From Acidobacteriota bacterium (GTDB taxonomy: Bacteria; Acidobacteriota; Terriglobia; Terriglobales; Acidobacteriaceae): a stretch of 35,022 nucleotides of DNA. Where the stretch lies: NCBI GenBank assembly GCA_003225465.1, contig QIAH01000359.1, forward strand, positions 1 through 35,022, written 5' to 3'. Below the pieces are notes generated by a model. That model was not told where the DNA came from, did no database searches, and saw nothing but the letters and a program-made list of their open reading frames with translations. The position numbers and the translations under genes are program-made. Shown here in pieces: positions 17,931 through 19,392 of the stretch; the stretch's first letter is position 1, and every line of letters starts with the position of its first letter.

Positions 17931-17948
17931 TGCGCGGCCTCTGCGCAG

Positions 17949-18208
17949 TTTTCCACCAAACCGGAGCGTCTTCCTTCCAGTTCTCTGTGGAGCAGGTGTG
18001 GAAGCTGTGTAAGAACAGTTCGAAGCGGAAAGTCGGTCCCAGATCCTCCACCGCCTCCGCCGCTCGCGGGACCTATTTTGGACATGAACGGTGTATCGGC
18101 AAACAGGTGCCAGCAGGCCAGTTGGATCGGTTTTCCACTTTTCCGAGCTACCTGCTGTTACTACTGGTTTTATAGGTTTTTAATTTGATATAAAAAAGCA
18201 ATAGAAGT
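17949..18208. other. Candidate chromosomal origin oriC in the dnaA-dnaN gap
   Basis: DnaA-box-like 9-mers are TTTTCCACC 17949-17957 (+), TGTGGAGCA 17986-17994 (minus, 7 of 9), TGTGGAAGC 17997-18005 (minus), TGTGTAAGA 18006-18014 (minus, weak) and TTTTCCACT 18131-18139 (+). After the last box and a short GC-containing spacer come five triplets CTG CTG TTA CTA CTG at 18152-18166, which read on the complementary strand as 3'-GAC GAC AAT GAT GAC-5', close to the DnaA-trio 3'-(G/A)A(T/A)-5'. An AT-rich segment follows at 18167-18208. This order (boxes, spacer, trios, AT-rich) is that of the Bacillus basal unwinding system. Gene polarity on either side also fits an origin here. Confidence 0.65.
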
Positions 18209-18234
18209 AGCGCCGCCCTACGGGAGATTCGGCT

Positions 18235-19392
18235 ATGCCGGTTGAAGTGGCCACTGCGACTGGAACTGGGATTATGGAGATCACGGTCAGCAAGTTTGAA
18301 CTTCTGCGCGAGCTGACGGCCACGCAGGGAGTCGTCGAACGCAAGACTACGATCCCGATCCTCTCCAACTATCTCTTCGAAGCTTCCGGCGACAAGTTGT
18401 CGCTCACCGCCACCGACCTCGACTTGAGCCTGCGCACCGCCTGCAACGCCAAGGTCAAGAAGGAAGGCTCCTGTACCATCCCCGCGCGCAAACTATACGA
18501 CTACGTAAAGCTCCTGCCCGACGCCGAGATCACGATCAAGCTGCTCGACAACCACTGGGTCAGCATCCGCTGCGGACGCTCCAACACCAAGATGGTTGGG
18601 ATGGCGAAGTCGAATTTCCCCAGCCTGCCTGTGTTTCCGACTGCCGGCGTAGTCAAGATCCCCGCCCAGGTTCTGCGCGCGATGATTGCCAAGACCGGCT
18701 TCGCCATCGCGAACGAAGAATCCCGTTACACCCTGAACGGCGCCCTGATGGTCCTCAAGCCTGAGTCCATCACCATGGTCGCGACCGATGGTCATCGCCT
18801 CGCTCACATCGAGCGCAATGGAGAAAAATTCGAGGGCGTCTCCGGCGAAATGAAAACCCTCATTCCGAAGAAGTGCATGGACGAGCTGAAGCTATTGGTC
18901 GATTCCACCAATGATGTCGAAACCATCGACTTCGCCAAAGACGAATCCACACTCTTCTTCCGCATCGGCCCGCGCCTGCTGACCTCGCGCCAGCTCACGG
19001 GTCAATTTCCCAACTTCGAAGCGGTCCTTCCCAAAGACAACAACAAGCACGTCAGCCTGAACGGCGACGACTTCAGCGCCGCCATCCAGCGCGTAGCCCA
19101 GTTCTCCGACGAGCGCTCCCGCGCAGTCCGCCTCCGCCTGGAGAAAGGCGAGTTGAAGCTTTCCGCCTCCTCCACCGATTCCGGCGAATCCGAGGACTCC
19201 ATCGAAACGCCCTACCAGGGCGACGGCCTCACCATCGGGTTCAACGCTACCTACATCCTGGACTTCCTGAAAGCGGTTGGTTCCGGAGACGTAAGCCTGG
19301 AGCTGAAAGACCCCCAATCCGCCGGCCAACTTCGCCCCCTAGGCAACGACGACTACAAGTACCGCTACATCGTCATGCCCATGCGGATCTGA
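18235..19392 (+). CDS. dnaN: DNA polymerase III subunit beta (sliding clamp)
   Basis: 385 residues from ATG 18235, which has GGGAG about 7 bases upstream. The family alignment would begin at the internal ATG 18274 (MEITVSKFELLREL, giving 372 residues), so the first 13 residues may not be real. The three-fold clamp domains are visible through the typical starts: KTTIPILSNYLFEASGDKL, then FPSLPVFPTAGVVKIPAQVL with VATDGHRLAHIE, and the C-terminal IGFNATYILDFLKAVGSGDV ending in YRYIVMPMRI. It encircles DNA and tethers polymerase III. It lies directly after the origin candidate; recF, the usual next gene, is not present. Confidence 0.97.
   Translation: MPVEVATATGTGIMEITVSKFELLRELTATQGVVERKTTIPILSNYLFEASGDKLSLTATDLDLSLRTACNAKVKKEGSCTIPARKLYDYVKLLPDAEITIKLLDNHWVSIRCGRSNTKMVGMAKSNFPSLPVFPTAGVVKIPAQVLRAMIAKTGFAIANEESRYTLNGALMVLKPESITMVATDGHRLAHIERNGEKFEGVSGEMKTLIPKKCMDELKLLVDSTNDVETIDFAKDESTLFFRIGPRLLTSRQLTGQFPNFEAVLPKDNNKHVSLNGDDFSAAIQRVAQFSDERSRAVRLRLEKGELKLSASSTDSGESEDSIETPYQGDGLTIGFNATYILDFLKAVGSGDVSLELKDPQSAGQLRPLGNDDYKYRYIVMPMRI

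Follow-up and report, generated by a model that had tools for sequence, protein, structure and literature searches.

Is the gap between dnaA and dnaN of an acidobacterium its chromosomal origin of replication (oriC), and would this origin be opened by the basal unwinding system (BUS) known from Bacillus? BUS elements have been published for most bacterial origins (1755/2070; PMC8287927), but the main text of that study makes no mention of Acidobacteria, and the BUS literature that we examined contained no discussion of an acidobacterial origin. An initial annotation of a stretch of 35,022 nucleotides (hereafter the window) had proposed a Bacillus-like unwinding layout in its dnaA-dnaN gap. Our analysis supports this proposal in that the gap very probably is the chromosomal oriC of the acidobacterium and holds a BUS, as suggested by a geometry like that of Firmicutes, the conservation of the core, nearly invariant trio centres, and the position of the core at a GC-skew switch in one relative. 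Weak DnaA boxes, the lack of a local skew switch, and seven close relatives without the core count against it. With this locus, the opening module known from Bacillus would reach into one of the major phyla of soil.

Anatomy of the dnaA-dnaN gap

The window was taken from a draft genome of 590 contigs, and its assignment to the acidobacteria holds because the named relatives, with 88% identity in DnaA, are Acidobacteriota or Acidobacteriaceae metagenome-assembled genomes (MAGs). Left of dnaA, the genes rnpA, yidC, and mnmE lie on the minus strand, while the MscL gene and gyrB follow dnaN on the plus strand (Table 1). The argument that the genes to either side point away from the gap was wrong: dnaA and dnaN are co-directional on the plus strand and not divergent, so that dnaA runs toward the gap, yet the origin interpretation can do without this argument. 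Directly to the right of mscL, we observed an Acido-Lenti-1 RNA (RF01687; 20030-20075, minus strand, 60 bits).

Table 1. Features of the proposed origin region and its flanking genes (positions in the window).
Feature	Position	Strand	Remarks
dnaA	16533..17930	+	465 aa
dnaA-dnaN intergenic gap, proposed oriC region	17931..18234		304 bp
DnaA box 1, TTTTCCACC	17949..17957	+	2 mismatches; kept in relatives
DnaA box 2, TGCTCCACA	17986..17994	-	2 mismatches; kept as CTGTGGA
DnaA box 3, GCTTCCACA	17997..18005	-	3 mismatches; kept as TGTGGAA
Weak DnaA box 4, TCTTACACA	18006..18014	-	3 mismatches; TGTG kept
Anchor DnaA box of putative unwinding core, TTTTCCACT	18131..18139	+	2 mismatches to TTATCCACA
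Spacer: conserved TTTTCC half-box (degenerate second box), then ~6 variable bases	18139..18151	+
Five putative DnaA-trios	18152..18166	-	top strand CTG CTG TTA CTA CTG; trio strand 3'-GAC GAC AAT GAT GAC-5'
AT-rich stretch after trios	18167..18195		likely first unwound DNA; overlaps dnaN promoter region
TTGATATAAG-type block, here TTGATATAAA	18186..18195	+	probable extended -10 of dnaN (TGnTATAAT-like); conserved
dnaN, sliding clamp	18235..19392	+	385 aa

Scored against the E. coli consensus TTATCCACA, the gap contains three boxes with 2 mismatches (17949 and 18131 on the plus strand, 17986 on the minus strand) where 0.5 would be expected (P about 0.015); none has 0-1 mismatches, and the remaining boxes have 3. 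The earlier count of five box-like 9-mers is roughly right because the weak boxes at 17997 and 18006, both on the minus strand, are conserved in relatives, though only three of the five come within 2 mismatches. The GTTTTCCAC of box 1 recurs exactly at 18130. The gap thus combines a DnaA box cluster with adjacency to dnaA and dnaN, two features by which an oriC is recognized.

Direct reading confirmed the exact coordinates of the core as first described, with TTTTCCACT at 18131 followed by a short spacer, in-register triplets at 18152-18166, and AT-rich DNA beyond them. The 50-bp windows starting at 18155-18159 form the AT maximum of the whole 35 kb. Published descriptions of the BUS ask for a single DnaA box with at most 2 mismatches adjoining the trios (PMC8287927). 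In addition, the spacer should not exceed 16 bp (10-13 bp being common), and at least three in-register 3'-NAN-5' trios are required. At our locus, the box has 2 mismatches, the spacer between anchor box and trios measures 12 bp (18140-18151), and all five trios carry the canonical central A on the minus strand.

Conservation of the core and the proposed role of the anchor box

Alignment of the gap across relatives showed that the boxes and the triplet register are conserved and that no other part of the gap is as well conserved as the core. Among 18 relatives in which dnaA and dnaN are still linked, majority identity was 0.93 for the box and trios versus a mean of 0.58 for positions 17931-18128. 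In this otherwise poorly aligning gap, conservation was limited to the box-like sites at 17949, 17986, 17997, and 18006, the core, and then the TTTGATATAAG block. The motif TTTCCAC(T/A)TTTC at the anchor box was nearly invariant in 69 relatives of the linked clade.

A profile built from 22 cores gave a match in 105/200 family genomes. When we inspected the sequence preceding dnaN in additional genomes that the profile had missed, nearly all of them showed a diverged yet recognizable core. Loss of boxes and triplets in close relatives, which had been named as grounds for abandoning the proposal, is confined to seven exceptions beside approximately 120 family genomes with a core. Across the Acidobacteriota, a scan with a strict threshold that ignored the trio centres found clear cores in only 7/40 genomes, and we therefore make no claim for the phylum as a whole.

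The distance from the anchor box (TTTCC) to the first trio is 20 nt in 81 genomes and 21 nt in 38, together 119/120. Measured from the start of the 9-mer, it is 21 nt in the window, the same as at most Firmicutes loci that we examined. This spacing bears on how the strand would be captured. One alternative is that oriC lies here but is opened by a loop-back of the E. coli or Thermotoga type, with DnaA on the box cluster capturing the strand in trans and the triplets serving as the captured motif instead of a track for a filament laid down in cis from the anchor box. A box cluster of mixed orientation 115-200 bp upstream would suit this arrangement, as would the precedent of T. maritima, which captures TAG repeats by loop-back (PMC10316083), but the near-fixed distance is what one expects of a filament begun at the anchor box, and we regard the loop-back as unlikely.

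Separability of the core from dnaA, dnaN, and the probable dnaN promoter

Box and trios have been lost at dnaN in six genomes of the family (G216, G124, G081, G061, G149, and G133) as well as at locus L032 (genome G450), and all seven kept GCTGGT...TTTGATATAAG. In four of them (G216, G124, G081, and G061), the dnaA-dnaN gap has shortened to roughly 100-170 bp. G063 is the reverse case, in which the core is present and the TGATATAAG block absent. Because the right block persists in genomes without box and trios, we read it as a probable dnaN promoter that is separable from the core. The simplest reading is one of two modules, in which the right block likely serves dnaN as an extended -10 promoter while box and trios form a putative origin core. 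A second, inverted trio array to the right of the core (AAGTA...AAGTAG) was considered and rejected; it has no flanking box and would be better explained as the dnaN transcript start.

We looked for a rightward relocation of the core in the seven core-less genomes, using both the profile and a degenerate motif, and found no clear second core. The sole weak candidate for a relocation comes from G061, a bin of 76% completeness and 6% contamination, in which TTCCCACTTTTC is followed by CGA CTG CTG CTG ATA TTT CTA (L350, on G061:C265 near 3636, close to the contig end). This element may be a relocated origin core or reflect contamination of the bin.

The core is also found apart from either of its neighboring genes. 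In G016, G018, and G136, dnaA has gone elsewhere and the core still lies beside dnaN, while in G063, it is found 250 bp after dnaA with dnaN on another contig. G018 is a single contig of 3,686,523 bp on which core and dnaN are 415 kb away from dnaA. Its core sits at the GC-skew switch though dnaA has moved away: at this point, sampled skew jumps from -0.094 to +0.130 and the third-position mean from -0.12 to +0.25, whereas skew around dnaA is near zero or positive. G033, whose 5,650,368 bp form a single contig with dnaA at base 48, has a weaker switch at the core position. Within the 35-kb window, local skew showed no switch at the proposed origin; it is negative on both sides, with third-position skew more negative on the right. 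No clean switch in local skew was found in six close relatives either. In the clade of the window, strand asymmetry around the proposed origin is erratic. The close relatives G184 and G007 have positive GC skew on both sides of the core.

These arrangements also speak to the idea that the conserved block is nothing but a DnaA-regulated dnaN promoter and that replication starts at another site, such as one upstream of dnaA. The attachment of the TGATATAAG block, which resembles an extended -10, to dnaN also in genomes lacking box and trios would fit such a promoter, and so would the core following dnaN in the three genomes that have moved dnaA. However, the core of G063 stands beside dnaA without dnaN and without that block, box and trios are conserved in a constant triplet register and follow a specific rule at the centre, neither of which a promoter requires, the skew of G018 switches at the core, and the region upstream of dnaA holds scattered weak boxes only. 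We therefore judge the promoter explanation very improbable and retain the reading of the core as part of oriC. Relatives in which the core has left dnaA or dnaN, or vanished, form a set in which the movement of origins can be studied.

DnaA, predicted strand opening, and known unwinding systems

In B. subtilis, DnaA binds the box and from there forms a filament along the trio strand; in every trio, bases 1 and 2 are captured and base 3 points away. The roles of individual residues in base capture are known from the same protein (PMC10721633). The DnaA encoded in the window keeps E183, N187, I190, R202, K222, E223, E228, and R264 (B. subtilis numbering) with the substitutions I193L and N196D, so that the base-capture residues listed among the BUS criteria (N187, I190, I193, R202, and E228) are conserved or conservatively replaced. 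N196D was considered as the cause of the third-position freedom described below and dropped, as the other phyla that we compared commonly carry D at this residue.

We infer DnaA binding, strand opening, the helicase step, and origin activity as follows. DnaA would load on the boxes upstream as well as on the anchor box at 18131. Starting at the anchor box, a filament of ATP-DnaA would grow rightward onto the minus strand over the trios at 18152-18166 and capture two bases per triplet, the first being G/A and the second A or C. Capture would open the AT-rich DNA to the right of the trios, where the helicase would be loaded, probably with DciA. This protein is encoded in 32/41 genomes of our set of relatives, including the sister species, while a search for DciA (PF05258) found no match in the draft genome of the window itself (G000), which probably reflects a gap in the draft.

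Among the closest known counterparts is the BUS of B. subtilis incC (boxes 6/7 and DnaA-trios), which shares with our locus the order and strand of the elements, the location between dnaA and dnaN, AT-rich DNA past the trios, and the key residues of DnaA. Unlike at incC, the acidobacterial boxes are weaker, the second box is reduced to TTTTCC, the third trio position has A or G on the top strand instead of mostly A/T, and DciA likely loads the helicase in place of DnaD/DnaB/DnaI. The T. maritima eTrio DUE likewise has three-base repeats read single-stranded by DnaA but differs in its type of box and in the capture in trans that has been proposed for it (PMC10316083).

The tolerance of C at the third trio position that had been suggested for this locus agrees with our data, since A and G interchange freely at that position on the top strand among relatives. 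Third-position C is not new and was already known from the functional origin of H. pylori (PMC8235120, PMC10316083). The oriC2 DUE of this organism has a YTR consensus (5'-YTR-3'), which all five trios of the window follow, and third-position C (CAG) on the trio strand, but it has other boxes and belongs to a bipartite origin.

A or C at the centre of natural trios

Using substitutions in vitro and in vivo, Pelliciari et al. (2023) found that the exocyclic amine of A and C matters for capture, and B. subtilis mutants in which the central A of trios was changed to C were tolerated while G and T were not (PMC10721633). The same authors raised the possibility of a wider recognition, with the demonstration coming from mutants (PMC10721633). 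We analyzed the natural variation of trio centres with a register set solely by a pyrimidine at position 1 and a purine at position 3, so that the centre had no part in the choice. Across 112 genomes from 59 genera, the top-strand centres were T in 495 cases, G in 64, C in 1, and A in 0, that is, T or G in 559/560; random genomic windows passing the same filter had A, C, G, and T at fractions of 0.17, 0.33, 0.33, and 0.17. With a fixed offset and no filter, the five centres were T or G in 97-100% in the first clade. In the sister clade (48 genomes after additions), the top-strand centre was G in 75/240 trios, and in 23 genomes, the first five trios included no run of three with central T; 23/48 origins of this clade thus fail the published rule of three NAN trios there.

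As a control, T-rich columns outside the trios had changed to G 27 times, to A 25 times, and to C 12 times after collapsing by genus. At trio centres, we counted 44 changes to G, 3 to C, and 2 to A (P about 1.5e-7 versus the control columns), the few changes to C or A including a locus without a true core and all counts coming from related genomes whose shared ancestry is lessened but not removed by genus collapsing. The T positions of the box changed chiefly to C.

That the triplets are a product of chance or of the composition of an AT-rich stretch deserves hardly any credence and is already refuted by conservation: three NAN near a weak box are not rare, as this looser, published type of criterion was passed by 7.7% of dinucleotide shuffles of the gap and three trios alone would thus prove little, but in 0/4000 shuffles did a box with at most 2 mismatches have five Y-T-(A/G/T) triplets within 16 bp after it, and register and centre are conserved across 59 genera.

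On the predicted trio strand of the relatives, the centre is A or C and almost never G or T, matching the amine rule established in the laboratory. The likeness to the B. subtilis mutants lies in the acceptance of central C but not of G or T, here in natural sequences of the relatives and some other phyla; the difference is that the relatives' central C is natural and alternates with A within one array, while the window itself has only central A. The relatives thus amount to a natural mutagenesis set in which centres go back and forth between A and C and avoid G and T, as amine-mediated capture predicts. In the main texts of the open papers that we searched, we found no report of natural central-C trios, and the A/C centre rule in natural BUS origins appears to be a new, sequence-based observation.

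We think it likely that the natural trio code is 3'-R-M-Y-5' with A or C at the centre and not 3'-NAN-5', that this acidobacterial family uses central C routinely, that BUS finders demanding a central A under-call, and that the amine rule has shaped origins over long evolution. The proposed recognition rule becomes testable from sequence, and replacing NAN by NMN would be our suggested correction for such finders.

Outside the family, a blind analysis of 49 loci, mostly from other phyla with a few other acidobacteria, yielded top-strand centres of T in 209 cases, G in 29, A in 7, and C in 0. Origins of other phyla with central-G trios on the top strand are L095, L101, L094, L088, L079, L065, and L096. 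One example from a Clostridia bacterium reads CTA CGG CGG TTA CGG CGG, which corresponds to central C on the trio strand.
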